A DNA stretch of 64,000 bases from an uncultured bacterium (GTDB taxonomy: Bacteria; Hydrogenedentota; Hydrogenedentia; Hydrogenedentales; CAILVY01). The translations under genes were made by a program, and so were the position numbers. The DNA is taken from contig CALEDJ010000051.1 of NCBI GenBank assembly GCA_937951485.1, positions 72,517 through 136,516 on the forward strand. The letters are read 5' to 3'. Shown in pieces: positions 3,858 through 31,411 of this stretch; within the stretch, counting starts at the first letter, position 1; each line of letters begins with the position of its first letter. The notes beneath the pieces are model-generated. The model saw only the letters and a list, made by a program, of their open reading frames with translations. It had not been told where the DNA came from and ran no database searches.

Positions 3858-6800
3858 TCATTTCTGTGCGACAGGGCAATTTTCAGTGACGCGGTCGCAT
3901 TTGCGGAGCGAGATGGCGTCTGTTGGACAGACATTGATGCAGTTGCCGCAGCGGATGCAGTTGTCGCTGTTGATCCAGATGTAGGTGGCTTCATGGGCCG
4001 CCGTGGCGGGGACTTCGGTCCAGGACAGCGGCGCGCCGTCGGCGTCGCGTTCGAGATGGCTGAGCCGCAGGATGCAGTCGCGCGGCGACACGCGGATGCA
4101 CCAGTCGCAGTGGATGCACTTGTCCTGGTCGATCTCGAACTTGTGGTTGCAGAGGTAGCAGCGCCAGGCGTGTTCCTGTGCGGCGTCGGGTCCATAGCCC
4201 AATTCCACCTCCGCATCGCCGCCGCGCTGTTCAAGCGGCAGGACGGGCATTTCCGGCGGAAAGACGAGGTCATGGTCGCGGGTGCGGCCGGTAAGCCCAG
4301 CGGGCAGTATGTTGGTATATGTCCTGCGGCGGGGAGCGCCCATGAGGAAGGCGTCAATGGCGTCGGCTGCGGATTTGCCGCTTGCGGCGGAATGGATGAT
4401 GTCGCCGCTGCCGGAGGCGAAGTCGCCCGCAATGAAGAGGCCCGGCATGCTGGTGGCGTGGGAATCGGGGAGCATTGTCACGCCTTTGGGCAGCAGTTCC
4501 GCTTCGCGGGTCTGGCCGATGGCGAAGACAAGCGTATCACAGGGCGCGTCGAACTCGCTGCCCGGGATGGGAATGAACGCGGGCTTGCCGCTTTCATCGG
4601 GTTCGCCCAGCAGCGTGCGGCGGAAGGTCACCGCTTTCAGTGATCCCTTTTCCACCTGTGCGGCCAACGGTGTGACCAGCGTTTCCACACGGATTTTTTC
4701 TGCGCGCAATTCATGCAATTCCGCCGGGCTGGCGGCCATCTGCGCCTCGCCGCGCCGGTACATGATGGCGACGTCGCCGGTGTCGCCGAGCAGGCGGCGC
4801 GCGGCGCGTGCGCAGTCCACCGCGGTGAAACCGCCGCCGATGACCAGCACATGGCCGCTGACCGGCGGCGGGTCGCCGGCCACGTAGCGCATCATGAAAT
4901 TCAATCCTTCAATGGCCAGTCCGGCCGGCAGGCCGGGCAGGTCGAGGCCATAGGGCCGATTCGTTCCGGTGGCAATGAGAATAGCGTCGTGTGCATCGCG
5001 CAGGCGCAGCACGTCCGCCGCGTCCAGCGATTCGCCCAGTCGCACCGTGATGCCGCTGTCCACGATGGCTGCGATATCTTCATCCACCGCGTCGGGCGGC
5101 AACCGAAAGGCTGGGATGGCGCGCATCTGTCCGCCCAGCCGCTGCTGTCGCTCGTACACGGTAACCTCATGGCCATATCGCTTGAGGTCACGCGCTGCCG
5201 CCAATCCCGCCGGACCGCCGCCAACGACAGCGACTTTCTTGCCCGTTGCGCCGAACCATGCGGGCAGCGGCGCGCTCTTTTGCGGTTTGTTGTCCGCCGC
5301 CACGCGCTTGAGGTGACAGATTTGCACTGCGCCCCGCGTGCTGGTCCACTGATAGCGGCATCGCGCTTCGCAGGGCCGCGTGCAGACGCGGCCCAGCACG
5401 TTGGGAAACACGTTGTCTTCCTGGTTGATAAGGTGCGCCGCTTCGGGATCGCCATGGGCGATGTGGCGGATATAGTCCGGCACGTTGGTCTTCGCCGGGC
5501 AGGCTTCCTGGCATGGGATATCACGGGCCACGGTTTTCAGGTCCAGCGCCGTCCCGCCTTCGCCCGTAAACAATGAGCATTCCAGCGGATTCGGCGCTTT
5601 CTCATACGTGATCCCCAGCGCGGCGACTGCGTCGCGGTAGGGCAGCATGCCCACGCGCCGCACATGCTCCGCAAGCGTTTCATCGGTTTTCGCCGCAAGC
5701 AGGGTGTCCAGCACCGCACGGACGACCCGAATGCAGTCCGGCGTCTTGAATTCGCCCAGCGGTTCGGCATACCGGGATTCCGTGCCGCCGATGACGACGA
5801 GATAACCTTCGGCGGACCCTTGCATTTCCCGGATGCGCATCCCCCGCAAACCGATGTCGGCAATTTGGTATTGGCCGCAGGAGTTGGGGCATCCGGAGAG
5901 GTGGATGATGACCCTCTCGCGGATGGGGGCGTAGCGCGGGTCATTCACCACATCCTGCAAGAGATCGAAGGTGTCGTGCGTGCAGGACACCGCCAAGGGG
6001 CAATAGGTGGTCCCCACGCAGGTCACAACATCCTGTAATTGGAAGAAGCCCTCTGTGCGGAAGCCAAGCGCCTCGATTTCCCTGCGCAGTTCCGGAAGGC
6101 GCTCCGGCTTTACGCCATGGATTTCCAGATTCTGCCGGTTGGTGCTGTACACATGCTTGTCGCCGTAAATGTCGGCGAGGTCCGCGATGCGCGCCAGCGC
6201 CGCCGACGCCATTTCCCCCTTGGGGATCATGATCCGCTGAATCGCGAGGCCGTCGGTGCCTGTGGGGTCCTTTTCCATCAGGGGCCGGTCGGGCACGGCG
6301 GGTCCGCAATCCTCGACCGGACCGCTTTCGATGCGGCTGCGGTCCACGCCTTCCTGGTCGAGAATCGCATCCACCAGTTCGCGGCACCGGTCAATGCCCA
6401 GGCGATGAACGACGAATTTCAGGCGCGAATACATGCGAATGCAGCGGTCGCCATGATCGCGGAAGAGAATGCCGATGGCCCGGCATACGCGCGCGATCTG
6501 CTCCGGCGGCACGAAGGTATAAAGCGTCTGCGCCACAAATGCCTTCCAGCCCAGCCCGCCGCCGATATTCACGCGAAACCCGGTTTCCTCCGTTCCGTCG
6601 GGACGACGGCGAACGATGGCGACCACGCCGATGCAGTTCATATGGGGTTGGCCGCAGCCGCCGCAACAGCCGGAAAAAGTGATTTTGAACTTGCGCGGCA
6701 GGTTGTCCAGGTCGCGGCTGGCGCTCAGCAGGCGCGCCGTCTCCTTGGCATACGGCAGCACATCAATGCGCCGGTGCCGGCAGATAGACGCCCAGGGGCA

Positions 6801-7196
6801 GGCCGCCACATTGCGTGTCACGTCGCCACAGCCATGGAAGGTCGTCAACTCCACGGCATTCAGGTCGCGCAGCAATTGAGGCAGTTCCGTGCATTTCAGG
6901 CAGTGTAACTGCGCCGACTGGCGCGTCGTGAACGAGATGCGGTTGGGGGAATACTTCGCCGAAAGCCGCGCCAGCGCGCGCGCCTGCACCGATGTCAATT
7001 GCCCGCCCGGAATCACCACCCGCGCCATGTGGTTGCCCGGTTGCCGCGAATGATAGATACCCTGCCATTTGGCGATGGCGATTTCTTCGCGGGTCATCGA
7101 GCCTTTGCGGGCGATCTCATCAAAATCAAGAATCAGCCCGGATTCCTTGATGATTTCCTCATCGCTTCTGAGAATCTTGTCCAGTTTCCGTTGCAC
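3858..7196 (-). CDS. Siroheme nitrite/sulfite reductase fused to GltD-type oxidoreductase and ferredoxin domain
   Basis: A 1112-residue three-part protein. Residues 1-535 resemble ferredoxin-dependent nitrite/sulfite reductases (NirA/CysI): two half-repeats and the siroheme/4Fe-4S cysteines C393-x5-C399 and C436-x3-C440 (SGCPNSCGQ). Residues about 560-955 are a GltD-like NAD(P)H:FAD module with Fe-S cysteines CQEAC and [21 protein letters not shown] and IGGGFTAVDCA. Residues 1010-1112 hold a two-cluster ferredoxin; the second motif is complete (C1080, C1083, C1086, C1090), while the first has Ser1037 where the fourth cysteine should be (CIHCDWCIRVSP). It probably reduces nitrite or sulfite with NAD(P)H in one polypeptide; nearby gltBD favours nitrite. 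I prefer the GTG at 7196, preceded by GGAGATGGAGG, over the GTG at 7241, which lies within about 10 bases of the predicted transcription start. Confidence 0.88.
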   Translation of the reverse strand: MQRKLDKILRSDEEIIKESGLILDFDEIARKGSMTREEIAIAKWQGIYHSRQPGNHMARVVIPGGQLTSVQARALARLSAKYSPNRISFTTRQSAQLHCLKCTELPQLLRDLNAVELTTFHGCGDVTRNVAACPWASICRHRRIDVLPYAKETARLLSASRDLDNLPRKFKITFSGCCGGCGQPHMNCIGVVAIVRRRPDGTEETGFRVNIGGGLGWKAFVAQTLYTFVPPEQIARVCRAIGILFRDHGDRCIRMYSRLKFVVHRLGIDRCRELVDAILDQEGVDRSRIESGPVEDCGPAVPDRPLMEKDPTGTDGLAIQRIMIPKGEMASAALARIADLADIYGDKHVYSTNRQNLEIHGVKPERLPELRREIEALGFRTEGFFQLQDVVTCVGTTYCPLAVSCTHDTFDLLQDVVNDPRYAPIRERVIIHLSGCPNSCGQYQIADIGLRGMRIREMQGSAEGYLVVIGGTESRYAEPLGEFKTPDCIRVVRAVLDTLLAAKTDETLAEHVRRVGMLPYRDAVAALGITYEKAPNPLECSLFTGEGGTALDLKTVARDIPCQEACPAKTNVPDYIRHIAHGDPEAAHLINQEDNVFPNVLGRVCTRPCEARCRYQWTSTRGAVQICHLKRVAADNKPQKSAPLPAWFGATGKKVAVVGGGPAGLAAARDLKRYGHEVTVYERQQRLGGQMRAIPAFRLPPDAVDEDIAAIVDSGITVRLGESLDAADVLRLRDAHDAILIATGTNRPYGLDLPGLPAGLAIEGLNFMMRYVAGDPPPVSGHVLVIGGGFTAVDCARAARRLLGDTGDVAIMYRRGEAQMAASPAELHELRAEKIRVETLVTPLAAQVEKGSLKAVTFRRTLLGEPDESGKPAFIPIPGSEFDAPCDTLVFAIGQTREAELLPKGVTMLPDSHATSMPGLFIAGDFASGSGDIIHSAASGKSAADAIDAFLMGAPRRRTYTNILPAGLTGRTRDHDLVFPPEMPVLPLEQRGGDAEVELGYGPDAAQEHAWRCYLCNHKFEIDQDKCIHCDWCIRVSPRDCILRLSHLERDADGAPLSWTEVPATAAHEATYIWINSDNCIRCGNCINVCPTDAISLRKCDRVTENCPVAQK

Positions 7197-7255
7197 AGAA
7201 AAGCCTCCATCTCCCCACAGCGTATTAAGTGAATCCCCCACCTGGATTCTAAGAA

Positions 7256-7284
7256 ATCATAGCACCTTGAGACGTCATGAACAA
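7256..7284 (-). promoter_or_regulatory. Sigma-70-type promoter for the reductase fusion gene
   Basis: On the minus strand TTGTTC (7279-7284), a 17-bp spacer and TATGAT (7256-7261) lie just upstream of the gene. The implied start of transcription near 7249 leaves room for the Shine-Dalgarno GGAGATGGAGG before the GTG at 7196. Confidence 0.55.
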
Positions 7285-24816: not shown

Positions 24817-26589
24817 TCAGACTTTGACCCGGGGTTTGTAATGCGTGTGCAGGAGATGGTGCGAGACTTCACCCAGCGGATGCCCCAGAAACTCCTCGTA
24901 GAGTTTCTTGATGTCGGGGTTTTCATGGGACTTGCGCAGTTGCTTGCCCTCGTCTTCCTTGTAAATGGCGCCGATGCGCGCCTTGCGCACTTCGTTCGTC
25001 GTCAGGCGCGGCTGGCCGCCGCCGCCGATGCAACCGCCGGGGCAGGTCATCACTTCGATGAAATGATACTGCGCCTCGCCGGAACGCACCCGCTCGATGA
25101 TGCTGCGGGCGTTGCCCAGCCCGTGCGCCACCGCCACCCTGGCTGTCACTCCCTTGAGGAAAGACCATTCCGGGACGGTTTCCTCGAAGGTAATCGCCGC
25201 TTCCTTGACGCCTTCAAGCCCTCCGATCGGTTCGACGTGCAGGTTATTGAAGGGGAAGGGTTTTCCGGTGACAAGTTCGTACACCGTGCGCAGGGCGGCT
25301 TCCATTACCCCGCCGGTGTTGGCGAAGATGTCCGCCGCGCCGCTCGAAAGGCCGATCGGCGAATCCATCTTGTCGTCGGGCAGGCTGTGAAAATCAATAC
25401 CCGCCTGCTTGATCATCCGCCCGAGTTCGCGCGTGGTCAGCACAATGTCCACGTCCCGCACGCCGCTGTCGTGCATCTCCGGCCGCTGGCTCTCGAATTT
25501 CTTCGCGGTGCAGGGCATGATGGACACCACGACCATGTCTTCGGGTTTCTTGCCGATTTTCCTTGCGTAGTAGGTCTTGGCAATCGCGCCGAACATCTGC
25601 TGCGGCGATTTACAGGTGGAGACATTGTCGAGCATATCGGGATAGAAGTATTCAATGTACTTGATCCATCCCGGGGAACAACTGGTGAACATCGGCAAGG
25701 CGACGGGTTCCTTGTCCACCAGCGCTTTCTTCAGGCGGGACAGCAATTCATTGCCTTCTTCGATAATGGTCAGGTCGGCGGTGAAGTTGGTGTCGAAGAC
25801 CGCGTCAAAGCCGAGGCGGCGCAGGGCGGACACCATTTTTCCGGTTACCAGCGTTCCCGGCGGATAGCCGAAGCATTCGCCGAGCGCGGCGCGGATGGCC
25901 GGGGCGGTCTGCACCACAACGGTCTTGGTGGGGTCTTCGAGCGCCGCGAACGCCTCGTCAATCTGGTCGCGTTCGCTGATCGCGCCCACGGGGCAGACCG
26001 CGCCGCACTGACCGCACTGCACGCAGACAACATCATCCAGATCACTGCAGAATGCCGGCCCGATGACGGTGTCAAAGCCCCGGTTCTGCGGGAACAGGCC
26101 GCCCACGCCCTGCGTCTCGTTGCACACGGTGACGCAGCGGCGACACAGCACGCATTTTGCGGTGTCGCGCACCAGCGCGGGCGTGCTCTCATCCACCATC
26201 TGACGGCTCTTCGCGCCGGTATAGTGGATTTCCCGGATGCCCAGCGTGCGCGCAAGGTCCTGCAACTCGCAGTCCTCGTTGCGCTCGCAGGTCTGGCAGT
26301 CGCCGCAGTGGTCGGACAAGATGAGTTCCACCACGGTCTTGCGCGCACTGCGCGCCCTTTTGGAGTTGGTGTGCACTTTCATGCCTTCGGCGACAGGGGT
26401 CACACAGGAGGCGACGAGGGCGCGGGCGCCCTCGACCTCCACCAGGCAAACCCGGCATGCGCCGATGGCCTGCACGTCTTCCAGGTAACACAAGGTCGGG
26501 ATTTTCACCCCGGCCTTTTCAGCCGCCTTCAAAACGGATGTTCCCTCGGGAACCTCCACGTGTACATTGTCAATGGTCAGCGTTGGCAT
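24817..26589 (-). CDS. hndD: [FeFe]-hydrogenase catalytic subunit, HndD/HydA type
   Basis: 590 residues, matching HndD-like subunits of multimeric [FeFe]-hydrogenases. N-terminal [2Fe-2S] domain (C34, C45, C48, C62), His-liganded 4Fe-4S site (H94, C98, C101, C107), two ferredoxin 4Fe-4S clusters (C146/149/152/156 and C189/192/195/199), then the H-cluster domain with C304 in TSCSPGW, C360 in MPCTAKKFE, and C516/C520 in EVMTCPGGCIGGGGQP. The position after C304, cysteine in many enzymes (TSCCP) and used in proton transfer, is serine. The ATG at 26589 follows GGAGATATC; a longer frame to 26721 overlaps hndC and is rejected. The HydE, HydF and HydG maturases are not in the window. Confidence 0.97.
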   Translation of the reverse strand: MPTLTIDNVHVEVPEGTSVLKAAEKAGVKIPTLCYLEDVQAIGACRVCLVEVEGARALVASCVTPVAEGMKVHTNSKRARSARKTVVELILSDHCGDCQTCERNEDCELQDLARTLGIREIHYTGAKSRQMVDESTPALVRDTAKCVLCRRCVTVCNETQGVGGLFPQNRGFDTVIGPAFCSDLDDVVCVQCGQCGAVCPVGAISERDQIDEAFAALEDPTKTVVVQTAPAIRAALGECFGYPPGTLVTGKMVSALRRLGFDAVFDTNFTADLTIIEEGNELLSRLKKALVDKEPVALPMFTSCSPGWIKYIEYFYPDMLDNVSTCKSPQQMFGAIAKTYYARKIGKKPEDMVVVSIMPCTAKKFESQRPEMHDSGVRDVDIVLTTRELGRMIKQAGIDFHSLPDDKMDSPIGLSSGAADIFANTGGVMEAALRTVYELVTGKPFPFNNLHVEPIGGLEGVKEAAITFEETVPEWSFLKGVTARVAVAHGLGNARSIIERVRSGEAQYHFIEVMTCPGGCIGGGGQPRLTTNEVRKARIGAIYKEDEGKQLRKSHENPDIKKLYEEFLGHPLGEVSHHLLHTHYKPRVKV

Positions 26590-26620: not shown

Positions 26621-29600
26621 TCATTTCGACTGACAGGCGGCTGTTTCCCGGTAATCGCAGCGCAGGCAACGCCGCGCCTCCCGCACCGCAACCGTTTCCG
26701 TAAACGGAATTTCCACTTCATTGAAATTGTGTACCCGCTTGGAGACGGGGAGCAGTTTCATCTTGGCGCGCGGCGCGTCCACCGGGTCGGCGTCCGGATC
26801 AAAGTCGGTGTCCACATCATACGGCTCCCGCCAGAAAGCATGCTCTTCGCCGGTCAGGTACTTGTCAATACCGACGGCGGCGCGCTCGCCCGCGCCGATG
26901 GCGTCCGCCACCGAGGACGGCCCGACAGCGGCATCACCGCCCGCGAAAAGCCATTCCACCGACGTCTGCCCGTAAATCGGGTCCGCCCAGATAAATTTGG
27001 ACGGCGTCAACTTGAGGTCCAGTCCATCCACCAGCGGTTTGACATCGAGCGACTGCCCGATCGCGGCGATGACCTGGTCCGCCTCTTCGATGAACGGATC
27101 TTCGTCCGCGCGGGCTTCCGGACGGCGGCGTCCGCTGCGGTCGTACTCGCCCAGCCACATGTGCTGGCATTTCACGCCGGCCACGCGCCCGTCTTTCACC
27201 ACGATTTCCTGCGGGGCGACGAGCATCTTGAGCAGCACGCCCTCGTTGACCGCTTCCTCGATTTCTTCCTTATATGCAGGCATTTCATCACGTGTCCGCC
27301 GATAGACGATGGTGACGCGCTCCGCGCCCAGCCGGATGGCCGTGCGGGCCGCGTCCACGGCGGCATTGCCGCCGCCGACAACCACGACCTTCTTGCCGAC
27401 CGGAACCGATCCGCGCAGGTTGTATTCGCGCAGAAACTGAATCGCTTCCGTCACGCCTTCGGCATCGTCATTGGGGATGCCCAGCCGCGCGCCCTTGGGC
27501 GCGCCCACGCCGAGGAAGACCGCTTCGTACCCTTCGTCGCGCAGTCCCTGGAGTGTGAAGTCGCGGCCCAGCGCCTTGTTCGTCTCGATGGTGACGCCCA
27601 TGCGCTCGATCATGCGGATTTCGCGCGCCAGTTCCTCGCGCGGCAGGCGGTAGGCCGGAATGGTCTGCACCAGCATGCCGCCCGGACGCGGCGCCGCTTC
27701 GAAGACCCTCGGCTGGTAACCCATGCGGGCGAGGAAGAAAGCGCAGGTCAGGCCGGCCGGGCCGGCGCCGACAATCGCCACCTTGCGCGCGGCGTTCTGT
27801 TCATTCTCGCGCATTTCCGGAATCTGCACCGTGACTTCCTGCTCCACCATGTAGCGCTTCAGCGCGCGAATCGAGACTGCGTCGTCCAGATTGGCGCGGC
27901 GGCACTTGTCTTCACAGGTGTGGAAGCAGACCCGCGCACAGACCGATGCAAAGGGGTTCTGGTCGCGGTGCACGCGCAATGCTTCGGCGTAGCGCTTTTC
28001 ACCGATGAGTGAAACAAAGCCCGGAATATACACGTTCGCCGGGCACGCGCTCATGCAAGGGGCGCGCACCAGCGCCGGGCAGACGCCCGCCGGGCACCGC
28101 TTCTCGCGGATGTGCATGTCGAACTCGCCGCGGAAATGGCGGATGGCCGACAGCACCGGGTTCGGCGCGGTCTGACCGAGGCCGCACAGGGAGGCGTCCT
28201 TGATTTGCTCGCCGAGCGCGATGAGTTTCTCGACATCGCCTTCCTCGCCTTCACCGTTGCAGATGCGGTCCACGATTTCCAGCATGCGTTTCGTGCCGAT
28301 GCGGCACGGCACGCATTTGCCGCAGGACTCATCCTGCACGAAGTCCAGGAAAAAGCGGGCCATGTCCACCATGCAGGTGTCTTCGTCCATGACGATGAGG
28401 CCGCCCGATCCCATGATCGCGCCGAGTTCCTGCAATGACTCGTAGTCCACCGGCACGTTCAGGTGCTGCTTCGGGATGCAGCCGCCCGACGGCCCGCCGA
28501 TCTGCGCTGCCTTGAACGCCTTGCCGCGCGGGATGCCGCCGCCGATGTCATAGATGATTTCACCCAGCGGCGTGCCGACCGGCACTTCCACGAGGCCCGT
28601 GTTGTTCACCGCGCCGGCCAGCGCAAAGACCTTCGTGCCCTTGCTCTTCTCCGTGCCGATTGAGGCGAACCACTGCGCGCCCTTGAGAATAATGACGGGA
28701 ATATTCGCATACGTTTCCACATTGTTCAGCAGCGTGGGCTTTTCCCACAGTCCCGCGATGGCCGGGAAGGGCGGGCGCGGGCGCGGCTCGCCGCGCTTGC
28801 CTTCAATTGAACGCATCAGCGCGGTTTCCTCGCCGCACACAAACGCGCCGGAACCCATCCGGATTTCCAGATCGAAACTGAAATCCGTGCCCATGATGTT
28901 CTTTCCGAGCAGTCCCAGTTCGCGCGCCTGTCTGATGGCCCCGTCGAGACGTTCCACCGCCAGCGGATATTCCGCGCGCACATACACATAGCCCTCGTCG
29001 GAGCCAATCGCATAGCCTGCGATGATCATCGCCTCAATCACGCTGTGCGGATCGCCTTCCAATACGCTGCGGTCCATGAATGCGCCGGGGTCGCCTTCGT
29101 CCGCGTTGCAGAGCACGTATTTCTTGTCGCCCGGCGCCTTGCGGGTGAAAGACCACTTCATGCCCGTGGAGAATCCCGCGCCGCCACGGCCGCGCAGACC
29201 GGATTTTTTGACCTCCTCCACGACCTGATCGGGCGTCATCTCGGTCAGCGCCTTGGCCAGCGCCTGGTAGCCGTCCCGCGCGATGTATTCATGGATGTTG
29301 GTGGGATCAATGCTGCCGCAATTGCGCAGCACGATCTTCTGCTGCTGCTGGAAAAAGCCGATTTCCTGCAGCGCGGGAATGATCTGCGCCGTCGCGGCCG
29401 CCTTGAAATTCAGGCGTTGCACGGGGCGGCCCTTGAGCAGGTGCTCCGTGACGATATCGTCCGCGTCGGCGGGCTTGAGTCCCTGGTAAAACACGCCGTC
29501 CGGATACACCACGGCCACCGGCCCGATGGCGCATGGACCCAGGCAGCCGGTCTGCACCACGCTGATTTCCTTGTCCAGCCCCTGTTTTTTCAGCGCCGCT

Positions 29601-29686
29601 TCCAGGGCCGCGCTGACTTCCAGTGCGCCCGAGGCCACGCATCCCGCCCCGGCGCACACCAACACGTGAGATCGAACTCCGTTCAT
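26621..29686 (-). CDS. hndC: NuoF-like hydrogenase subunit (HndC/HydB) fused to a GltD-type NAD(P)H module
   Basis: 1021 residues. Order: thioredoxin-like [2Fe-2S] domain (C11, C16, C48, C52); NuoF core with the FMN loop GRGGAGFSTGMKW (166-178), NADH motif NADEGDPGAF and 4Fe-4S cysteines C455, C458, C461, C501; then, after CPAGVC (531-536) where HndC proteins normally continue into a two-cluster ferredoxin, a full GltD-like module: Fe-S cysteines C544, C548, C583, C587, C591, C595, FAD motif GAGPAGLTCA (640-649) and second Rossmann motif GGGNAAVD (771-778). This would give the complex two pyridine-nucleotide sites, one on FMN and one on FAD. AGGAGA ribosome site. 31 bases before hndD. Confidence 0.94.
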   Translation of the reverse strand: MNGVRSHVLVCAGAGCVASGALEVSAALEAALKKQGLDKEISVVQTGCLGPCAIGPVAVVYPDGVFYQGLKPADADDIVTEHLLKGRPVQRLNFKAAATAQIIPALQEIGFFQQQQKIVLRNCGSIDPTNIHEYIARDGYQALAKALTEMTPDQVVEEVKKSGLRGRGGAGFSTGMKWSFTRKAPGDKKYVLCNADEGDPGAFMDRSVLEGDPHSVIEAMIIAGYAIGSDEGYVYVRAEYPLAVERLDGAIRQARELGLLGKNIMGTDFSFDLEIRMGSGAFVCGEETALMRSIEGKRGEPRPRPPFPAIAGLWEKPTLLNNVETYANIPVIILKGAQWFASIGTEKSKGTKVFALAGAVNNTGLVEVPVGTPLGEIIYDIGGGIPRGKAFKAAQIGGPSGGCIPKQHLNVPVDYESLQELGAIMGSGGLIVMDEDTCMVDMARFFLDFVQDESCGKCVPCRIGTKRMLEIVDRICNGEGEEGDVEKLIALGEQIKDASLCGLGQTAPNPVLSAIRHFRGEFDMHIREKRCPAGVCPALVRAPCMSACPANVYIPGFVSLIGEKRYAEALRVHRDQNPFASVCARVCFHTCEDKCRRANLDDAVSIRALKRYMVEQEVTVQIPEMRENEQNAARKVAIVGAGPAGLTCAFFLARMGYQPRVFEAAPRPGGMLVQTIPAYRLPREELAREIRMIERMGVTIETNKALGRDFTLQGLRDEGYEAVFLGVGAPKGARLGIPNDDAEGVTEAIQFLREYNLRGSVPVGKKVVVVGGGNAAVDAARTAIRLGAERVTIVYRRTRDEMPAYKEEIEEAVNEGVLLKMLVAPQEIVVKDGRVAGVKCQHMWLGEYDRSGRRRPEARADEDPFIEEADQVIAAIGQSLDVKPLVDGLDLKLTPSKFIWADPIYGQTSVEWLFAGGDAAVGPSSVADAIGAGERAAVGIDKYLTGEEHAFWREPYDVDTDFDPDADPVDAPRAKMKLLPVSKRVHNFNEVEIPFTETVAVREARRCLRCDYRETAACQSK

Positions 29687-29734: not shown

Positions 29735-30106
29735 TTACGTGGCAATCAAATAATCCATCACCGGTTTGCCGTTGAGCACATGGTCCAGCACGATCGCGCG
29801 CACGCGCTCCGCGTCCAATTTCCCGTAGCGGTATTCCTTGCCGGCCTTGTCGCACAAGGTCAGCATCGGCTCGCGGTCGCACAGCCCCACGCAGCCGGAC
29901 TGCCGCAGCGTGACGTTTGTCGCCCCCGCGCGTTCGATTTCCAGCGCGAGGCTTTTCAGCACGTCGCGCGCGCCGGCGGCGATCCCGCAGGTGCCCATGT
30001 GCACCGTGATCTGGATTTCCTTGGGGCCGGTGCGCAGGTCTATTTCCGCCTTGGCCCGCTCGCGCAGCGCCAGCAAATCCTTCGGACTTGTAATCTTCTC
30101 TGCCAT
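29735..30106 (-). CDS. hndB: Thioredoxin-like [2Fe-2S] ferredoxin subunit, HndB type
   Basis: 123 residues. Cluster cysteines are in HMGTCGIAAGA and SGCVGLCDREP, the spacing of HndB of the Desulfovibrio Hnd hydrogenase. It sits between the NuoE-like and NuoF-like genes, exactly the hndA-hndB-hndC order. I chose ATG 30106 (MAEKITS) because AAGGAG is 8 bases away; an in-frame ATG at 30112 is only 2 bases from that site. It likely passes electrons inside the hydrogenase complex. Confidence 0.88.
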   Translation of the reverse strand: MAEKITSPKDLLALRERAKAEIDLRTGPKEIQITVHMGTCGIAAGARDVLKSLALEIERAGATNVTLRQSGCVGLCDREPMLTLCDKAGKEYRYGKLDAERVRAIVLDHVLNGKPVMDYLIAT

Positions 30107-30131
30107 TGCCATTTCTCCTTGACCCCGCGGC

Positions 30132-30668
30132 TCAGCGGCCGGCATTCGCAGCAGCCGCCGCGTCTTTGTCCAGATACTGATCCAGCACCGCCTGAATCCG
30201 CGCGGGCTTCACCCGCTGGTGCACATCGTTGTCCACCATGATCGCGGGCGCCAGACCGCACGCGCCGAAACAACGCGCCACATCCAGCGAGAAAACCCTG
30301 TCTTCGGTCGTCTCGCCCACATCAATCCCCAGTTTTTCCTTCAACGCCTCCAGCACCTGCTTGCCGCCGCGCACATAGCACGCCGTGCCCAGGCACACCC
30401 GGATCATGTGCCTGCCGCGGGGAACGGTCGAAAAGAACGAGTAGAAACTCACCACCCCCGCCACCTCGCTGTACGACTTGTTCAGGCCGAGACTGATCTT
30501 CTTCATCGCGCTTTCCGGCAGATAGCCGAACATCGCCTGGGCGATTTGCAGCACCGGAATCAGCGCGCCCGGCTTCACCCGGTACTCCGCGATCACATCA
30601 TCCAAGCGGGCGAGCAGTTCCTCCTCGCTCACCTCTTCCATGCATTGACAGGCCGACTTTTCCGTCAT
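30132..30668 (-). CDS. hndA: NuoE-like [2Fe-2S] hydrogenase subunit, HndA/HydC type
   Basis: 178 residues, NuoE fold: N-terminal helical bundle (QIAQAMFGYLPESAMKKIS), then the thioredoxin-like domain with [2Fe-2S] cysteines in CLGTACYVRG and RCFGACGLAPA. It pairs with the NuoF-like subunit. The ATG at 30668 follows AGGAGGG; a frame continuing to 30929 would run into rex. The gap to rex is 95 bases with no obvious terminator, so rex is likely on the same transcript. Confidence 0.94.
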   Translation of the reverse strand: MTEKSACQCMEEVSEEELLARLDDVIAEYRVKPGALIPVLQIAQAMFGYLPESAMKKISLGLNKSYSEVAGVVSFYSFFSTVPRGRHMIRVCLGTACYVRGGKQVLEALKEKLGIDVGETTEDRVFSLDVARCFGACGLAPAIMVDNDVHQRVKPARIQAVLDQYLDKDAAAAANAGR

Positions 30669-30763: not shown

Positions 30764-31411
30764 TCACACCGCCGTGTTCGCCTGATGCCGCGCCGACACG
30801 CGCTGCCGCGCGAAATACGCCACCTTCTCCAACGACATGGTCAAATCCACGGTATCCACATACACCGTGTCCGGCAGACGCAGGCGCACCGGCGCAAAAT
30901 TCAGAATCCCCGAAATGCCCGCCCTGCACAACGCCTCCGCCACGCCCTGCGCCTGCTCCGCAGGAACCGCAATCACCCCGATGTCTATGTTCTGCTCCCG
31001 AACCACCGGCGCCAAATCATCCATCGCATAGCACCGGCATCCGTGGTGCGTCCGGTTCACCTTCGCCGGATCCGTATCGAATGCCGCCCGAATCGCCAAC
31101 TGCCGCCAGCGCCCGGAGAAATGCGACAGGATCGCAAGCCCCAAATGCCCCAACCCCACCAGCGCCGCGCCCTGCATCCGAGGACTGTCCAGCAGATCGC
31201 TGATGCTCTCAATCAACCGCCGCACGTTGTAGCCGCTGTTCGGCACCCCCGAATACCCCAACTGCATGAAATCCCGACGCACCTGCGCCGCCTTCCCATG
31301 CAACAGCGCCGCCAACTCGTGCGACAAAATGGACTCCCGGCCCTCCGCGCGCAACTGACACAGTATGCGCCGGTACAGACTCAGTCGCTCCACTGTCTTC
31401 TCCGAAATCAT
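30764..31411 (-). CDS. rex: Redox-sensing transcriptional repressor Rex
   Basis: 215 residues: N-terminal winged helix (1-80, with SHELAALLHGKAAQVRRDFMQLG) and a Rossmann domain with GLGHLG (87-92) that senses the NADH/NAD+ ratio. The C-terminal swapped helix region (VDLTMSLEKVAYFARQR) is present. Rex proteins release DNA when NADH is high and typically control fermentative and hydrogenase genes; here it leads the hnd operon and has a candidate operator in its own promoter. GAGGAAGAG ribosome site. Confidence 0.95.
   Translation of the reverse strand: MISEKTVERLSLYRRILCQLRAEGRESILSHELAALLHGKAAQVRRDFMQLGYSGVPNSGYNVRRLIESISDLLDSPRMQGAALVGLGHLGLAILSHFSGRWRQLAIRAAFDTDPAKVNRTHHGCRCYAMDDLAPVVREQNIDIGVIAVPAEQAQGVAEALCRAGISGILNFAPVRLRLPDTVYVDTVDLTMSLEKVAYFARQRVSARHQANTAV

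Follow-up and report, generated by a model that had tools for sequence, protein, structure and literature searches.

The window analysed here, a 64,000-nucleotide stretch from a contig of an uncultured Hydrogenedentota bacterium, encodes a protein in which the HydB/HndC-type (NuoF) subunit of an [FeFe]-hydrogenase is fused to a GltD-type flavoprotein module in place of the usual ferredoxin tail. We propose, with a probability of roughly 55%, that it forms the beta subunit of an [FeFe]-hydrogenase encoded by four genes, in which a StnC-type NADPH/FAD module would replace the ferredoxin tail, and H2 would be coupled reversibly to NAD+ at the FMN and to NADP+ at the FAD. The architecture, the operon, the cofactor ligands and the kinship of the modules are directly supported by sequence; from these we infer the electron routes.

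Architecture of the fusion protein

The initial annotation had read this gene, with its strand left unsaid, as an HndC-GltD fusion joined at CPAGVC, with a GltD-like part of about 480 residues taking the place of the ferredoxin tail, and each of these points held up. The fusion is a single unbroken ORF of 1021 residues on the minus strand, with Pfam matches to both halves: 2Fe-2S_thioredx (residues 6-81), Complex1_51K (159-330), SLBB (354-402) and NADH_4Fe-4S (441-525) on the NuoF side, and Fer4_20, equivalent to DPD domain II (536-618), and Pyr_redox_2 (635-933) on the GltD side. The NuoF part is complete up to CPAGVC (531-536), and a complete GltD-type module then spans about residues 541-1011. 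Pfam detects no Fer4-type ferredoxin domain anywhere in the 1021-residue chain. As a control we took the ordinary HydB that this genome also encodes (L013), and it does end with a Fer4 two-cluster tail. The two pyridine-nucleotide sites claimed earlier, one at FMN and one at FAD, are likewise predicted from the domains and motifs.

Over residues 4-541 the alignment to 7t2r_B, the NiFe-HydB of Acetomicrobium mobile, is free of gaps (E 6e-251), and HydB of A. woodii and T. kivui also align closely, while residues 541-1019 match the GltD domain of the StnC-type chains 9bov_A (E 1.8e-120) and 8oh5_C (E 1.9e-107). The predicted structure of the whole fusion has a pLDDT of 88.9 and a pTM of 0.84. 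In two rows of the structural comparison, A. woodii HydB is aligned as far as its residue 598, in the ferredoxin tail, and the model as far as its residue 1011. This hints at a position of the GltD module's end close to that of the B3/B4 clusters; given that this comparison provides end points only, we attach no weight to it. An assembly chimera or frameshift is ruled out by the many full-length single-ORF fusions in independent assemblies from many phyla, and by orthologs with 82-85% identity in related genomes.

Table 1. Features of the hydrogenase operon and of the fusion protein (window coordinates)
Feature	Position	Strand	Details
rex, NAD(H)-sensing repressor	30764..31411	minus	probable operon regulator
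nuoE/hndA (BfuC), [2Fe-2S] subunit	30132..30668	minus	178 aa
BfuD/HndB-like small thioredoxin-like [2Fe-2S] protein	29735..30112	minus	start codon uncertain
Fusion protein (BfuB, sub-type I)	26621..29686	minus	1021 aa
N-terminal thioredoxin-like [2Fe-2S] domain	29444..29671	minus	aa 6-81; Pfam PF01257; ligands C11, C16, C48, C52; numbered B5 by Feng et al.
NuoF core	28112..29308	minus	aa 127-525; FMN site, SLBB, [4Fe-4S] B1 (C455, C458, C461, C501)
Hinge	28079..28114	minus	H525...C531-PAGV-C536; together with C438 (and C476) corresponds to the B2 site of bifurcating HydB (pentacoordinate, [2Fe-2S] or Zn)
DPD domain II	27833..28066	minus	aa 541-618; Pfam PF14691; two [4Fe-4S] sites, assigned by homology
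FAD and NADP(H) Rossmann domains	26852..27790	minus	aa 633-945; R680 (= StnC R239), YRR 795-797
C-terminal segment EARRCLRCD	26654..26770	minus	aa 973-1011; C1007 and C1010, the putative remaining ligands of the distal [4Fe-4S] site
hydA/hndD (BfuA), [FeFe]-hydrogenase	24817..26589	minus	590 aa; motifs TSCSPGW, MPCTAKK, EVMTCPGGCIGGGGQ

Operon and genomic context

The gene order on the minus strand is rex, nuoE, the small thioredoxin-like [2Fe-2S] gene, the fusion and hydA (Table 1), and rex is also found upstream of orthologous operons. The hydA gene most likely starts at 26589 rather than at the first ATG of its ORF at 26721. Its product belongs to [FeFe]-hydrogenase group A, with the H-cluster motifs P1, P2 and P3 intact, and scores 901 bits against NF040763 (cut-off 765) and 524 against TIGR02512 (cut-off 406). 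Among 60 related genomes examined, the same operon was recovered at 82-85% and at 65-70% identity, the closer orthologs being identical at this level over nearly their full length; hydA follows directly downstream in every case where the stored flank is long enough to show it.

The 4.55 Mb genome, which is 94% complete, also encodes HydG and an ordinary HydABC (at C68). A gltB with its own gltD lies near the start of the window, about 25 kb from the fusion; given this separate gltB/gltD pair, we rejected a role of the fusion's GltD module as the small subunit of glutamate synthase. Two further loci deserve mention as observations in their own right. At 3861-7256 of the window, on the minus strand, a 1132-residue protein joins a siroheme nitrite/sulfite reductase (NIR_SIR) to a GltD-type NADPH module and a ferredoxin domain. 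Elsewhere in the genome (C18; L014, 5113-10914), NuoE, a ferredoxin-tailed NuoF, a NuoG-like chain and a 147-residue MvhD-like protein are encoded together, and an HdrC-like gene lies close by; the HydBC core may here be connected to proteins of the heterodisulfide reductase type.

Cofactor ligands of the NuoF half and the hinge

Across 32 aligned fusions the ligands for FMN, B1 and the B2/Zn hinge are retained with single exceptions only, those of B1 being intact in all but one. The N-terminal [2Fe-2S] ligands are more variable: C48 and C52 are universal, while 25 of the 32 sequences have C11 and 26 have C16, such that the full set of four, which the window fusion possesses, is seen in about 25. 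At the hinge, C438, H525, C531 and C536 are invariant (32/32). In A. mobile HydB, where the residue numbering is identical to that of the fusion, the pentacoordinate B2 cluster is held by these same residues and C476 (PMC8880783), and the equivalent site of T. maritima was modelled as a hinge with Zn that lets the ferredoxin tail swing (PMC9499530). This invariance indicates that the bifurcation-specific hinge has been kept and that the new module begins right behind it. Judged by its ligands, then, the protein has had the B3/B4 ferredoxin tail alone replaced, with the FMN part, B1 and the B2/Zn hinge retained.

These ligands also bear on a different reading of the enzyme, namely that it does not bifurcate but equilibrates both nucleotide pools with H2 as an uncoupled H2:NAD+:NADP+ oxidoreductase, comparable to the ferredoxin-independent Syntrophomonas/Syntrophus enzymes with a second nucleotide site added. 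The fusion lacks B3 and B4, and enzymes without them have been reported to be non-bifurcating (PMC11406978, PMC7311640). However, unlike those enzymes it still has its N-terminal cluster and the B2/hinge site, along with two clusters that stand in for the missing pair, and the genome already has an ordinary HydABC with a ferredoxin tail. We consider this reading unlikely, though one that deserves serious weight beside the proposed coupling of H2 to both nucleotides.

Affinities of the GltD-type module

By its motifs the module is complete, with those for both FAD and NADP. In DPD domain II, C544, C548, C587, C591, C595 and K610 are invariant among the aligned fusions. From homology to dihydropyrimidine dehydrogenase and NfnB, we take C548, C587, C591 and K610 to be the ligands of the FAD-proximal cluster and C544, C595, C1007 and C1010 those of the distal one. 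The YRR at 795-797 and the kinship to NADPH enzymes suggest NADP(H) as the nucleotide at the FAD site, its preference over NAD being read from motifs only. The GltD-typical GGMLxYGIP is seen as GGMLVQTIP in the window fusion, and these two positions vary widely among fusions.

The likeness to the Stn transhydrogenase recorded in the initial annotation proved closer than was claimed there, given that the module groups with StnC by tree, fold, cluster ligand and circular permutation. K610 aligns with K170 of StnC, and lysine is present here in 38/38 fusions and in 28 of 30 StnC-type domains (histidine in the other two), as against glutamate in 14 NfnB proteins of other loci; the latter comparison group also contains two rows for other GltD-like proteins encoded in the window. 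The RCLxC motif follows the FAD motif in protein order in all 32 fusions with both motifs and in 14/14 StnC-type proteins, whereas it precedes it, at the N-terminus, in 6/6 NfnB or GltD proteins. In the tree, the modules of all 38 fusions group together as a single clade (SH-aLRT 98), which a branch with a support of 100 places with StnC and separates from NfnB. A single origin of the fusion is probable rather than proven, as this was a quick tree without bootstraps, built on rows from a junction-seeded scan. The module was also folded alone, because a fold search with the whole chain returned mainly the NuoF half; the isolated model (pLDDT 92.5) is best matched, over its whole length, by the StnC-type chains 9bov_A (Z 48.2) and 8oh5_C (Z 46.0), while NfnL is matched with Z 38.5 over residues 1-410 only. 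By residues, tree and predicted fold, the module is thus StnC-like and not NfnB-like. An identity as NfnB was rejected on the lysine found where its proximal cluster has a glutamate ligand, and no NfnA partner is encoded in the window operon.

Zheng and Huang suggested in 2024 that the FAD of this module forms a second bifurcating center (PMC11406978), which would be NfnB-like and stand beside the FMN-FeS center. The GltD fold is indeed common to NfnB, and the arginine touching FAD in NfnB is conserved as R680. Nevertheless, the proximal-cluster residue is glutamate in NfnB and lysine in StnC, where the GltD domain carries NADPH electrons through an FAD shown to be non-bifurcating (PMC10482914). 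The lysine and the kinship to StnC are therefore evidence against this suggestion, as is the absence of an NfnA-like partner from the operon, and we hold it to be improbable. Little credence, too, can be given to a scheme in which ferredoxin still docks, at the distal DPD-II cluster, and the complex handles ferredoxin along with H2, NAD(H) and NADP(H): NfnB takes ferredoxin via its two [4Fe-4S] clusters (PMC10482914), but if the distal cluster is what connects the module to the NuoF core, it would lie buried on that side, and the operon has no ferredoxin gene.

Proposed electron flow

In the bifurcating scheme with NADP+ that we favor, electrons from H2 would leave the H-cluster and travel by way of HydA to B1 and the FMN; the FMN would make NADH and act as the bifurcating center, as in other HydB proteins. 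A second, low-potential branch would lead via C1 of NuoE and B2 at the hinge to the two DPD-II clusters, the FAD and NADP+. As it is NADP+ that this branch would reduce, NADP+ would take the role of ferredoxin: 2 H2 + NAD+ + NADP+ = NADH + NADPH + 2 H+ (protons balanced). The reaction would be reversible, and hence H2 could be formed from NADH plus NADPH.

In favor of this scheme are the complete StnC-like module, the intact hydA, the presence of HydG in the genome and the retained FMN, B1 and hinge ligands, which set the fusion apart from the S. wolfei-type non-bifurcating enzymes, described as being without the extra clusters (PMC11406978). Against it, the canonical HydB tail swings between states, which a 480-residue module may not do, and the GltD domain of Stn sends electrons into the core by way of a NuoG-like chain, which is another entry point.

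Relatives and exchange of partners

We used the junction sequence from two paralogues as the seed of a scan, which yielded 80 loci, many of them with single-ORF NuoF-GltD fusions; given this seeding, the counts are not a census. We analyzed the GltD module in 38 fusions, three of them from the genome itself. The search for NuoF-GltD proteins next to hydA proposed in the initial annotation was productive: in the nearest relatives, from Hydrogenedentota (83%), Phycisphaerae, Lentisphaeria and Opitutae, hydA lies directly downstream in all. In Atribacterota a second NuoE, a NuoF lacking the tail and HydA come after the fusion. In other cases the partner is FdhA, as in Chloroflexota and others, or a NuoG-NfnA chain, as at L050 and the paralogous locus C5. 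The genome has three fusion copies of three kinds: that of the window with HydA, that of C5 (L009) with NuoG-NfnA and NfnB, and that of C15 (L011) with FdhA. On the tree of full-length fusions, the partner state (hydrogenase or other) needs at least three changes, and the core has therefore swapped partners. More tentatively, and short of even odds, NuoF-GltD plus NuoE might constitute a general ferredoxin-free bifurcating core with NADP+ as its low-potential partner, combined in different systems with no fewer than three kinds of third subunit (hydrogenase, formate dehydrogenase and an NfnA-like chain).

Some of these loci show additional features. Five from Atribacterota (L030, L032, L033, L034, L035) have two NuoF copies, one GltD-fused and one ending about 15 residues past CPxxxC, with HydA next, and may specify a larger complex with two FMN sites and one FAD site. 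At L009 (4319-12075), L050 and L121, NuoE and NuoF-GltD are followed by an 837-residue chain, with a NuoG-type Fe-S part, a molybdopterin remnant and an NfnA-like C-terminal part, and then by NfnB; this arrangement resembles a NuoF-GltD core merged with an entire NfnAB transhydrogenase. At L011 (880-9307), NuoE, NuoF-GltD and a 902-residue FdhA lie beside MetF-like and CODH/ACS-type genes of a Wood-Ljungdahl cluster; this set, built on the same core, is a candidate for an NAD(P)-linked formate dehydrogenase of that pathway.

Relationship to known systems

The novelty implied by the initial annotation did not survive, for the architecture was published in 2024 as sub-type I BfuABDC, a group A3 [FeFe]-hydrogenase of Hydrogenedentota and relatives (Zheng and Huang, PMC11406978). 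The window operon shares with it a BfuB in which B3/B4 have given way to DPD_II and a C-terminal FAD/NAD(P) domain, the order C-D-B-A (an A-B-D-C cluster on one strand) and a serine in motif P1, with no difference in layout. The window fusion clusters with L018-L020 (support of 100 on the full-length tree and 99 on the GltD-module tree), L018 being the exemplar genome CSSed162cmA_463 of that study, whose ortholog is 83% identical and has the same gene order. That study covers hydrogenases only, whereas the NuoF-GltD core is found here also with FdhA and NfnA-like partners.

With bifurcating HydABC/HndABCD and the Bfu family (PMC9304861) the system shares HydA, the NuoE partner and a NuoF core with the FMN site, B1, the His/Cys ligands of B2 and the N-terminal [2Fe-2S] site. 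Its BfuB has no B3/B4 ferredoxin-type [4Fe-4S] domain, which Schut et al. (2022, PMC9304861) require, and the NuoF-GltD fusions therefore fall outside their definition. Stn (StnABC, PMC10482914) is similar in its HydBC-like core and GltD domain, the lysine at the proximal cluster (K170, matched by K610), the C-terminal RCLxC and an expected NADPH site. However, its GltD domain resides in the NuoG-like StnC chain and StnB retains the ferredoxin tail, whereas the window system has GltD in the NuoF chain, no Fer4 tail, and a hydrogenase with an H-cluster as the third, NuoG-like chain. NfnAB and the GltD of glutamate synthase share the GltD fold, DPD domain II and the FAD and NADP(H) domains, but differ in the N-terminal RCLxC and, for NfnB, in the glutamate at the cluster; the fusion has neither NfnA nor GltB adjacent to it.

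A long-known, characterized NuoF-GltD hydrogenase subunit, which would have spoken against the initial annotation, was not found in the open-access literature, to which the search was confined and which provided only the 2024 genomic description and no biochemistry. Papers on Pelobacter, Dehalobacteriia and deep-sea Chloroflexi and an Nfn review do not describe such a hydrogenase. HydDB has a label 'group A2, glutamate synthase-linked', of which we made no use.

Energetic and biological implications

Using potentials of -280 mV for NADH, -380 mV for NADPH and -500 mV for ferredoxin (Schut et al., Table 1 of PMC9304861), we computed the H2 pressures at balance as about 3 Pa with NADH, about 150 Pa with NADH plus NADPH and about 15 kPa with NADH plus ferredoxin. 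To the 2024 description, the present analysis adds the replacement of B3/B4 only, the StnC-like nature of the GltD module, the formate dehydrogenase and NfnA-like partners, and the three copies in a single genome; the residue evidence makes the published question, whether the extra FAD bifurcates, directly testable. The interest of the system lies in the proposed reaction and in the swapping of partners. If the inferred reaction is true, this would be a bifurcating hydrogenase that needs no ferredoxin, is balanced at about 150 Pa H2, a range met in syntrophic sediments, and ties biosynthetic NADPH directly to H2.
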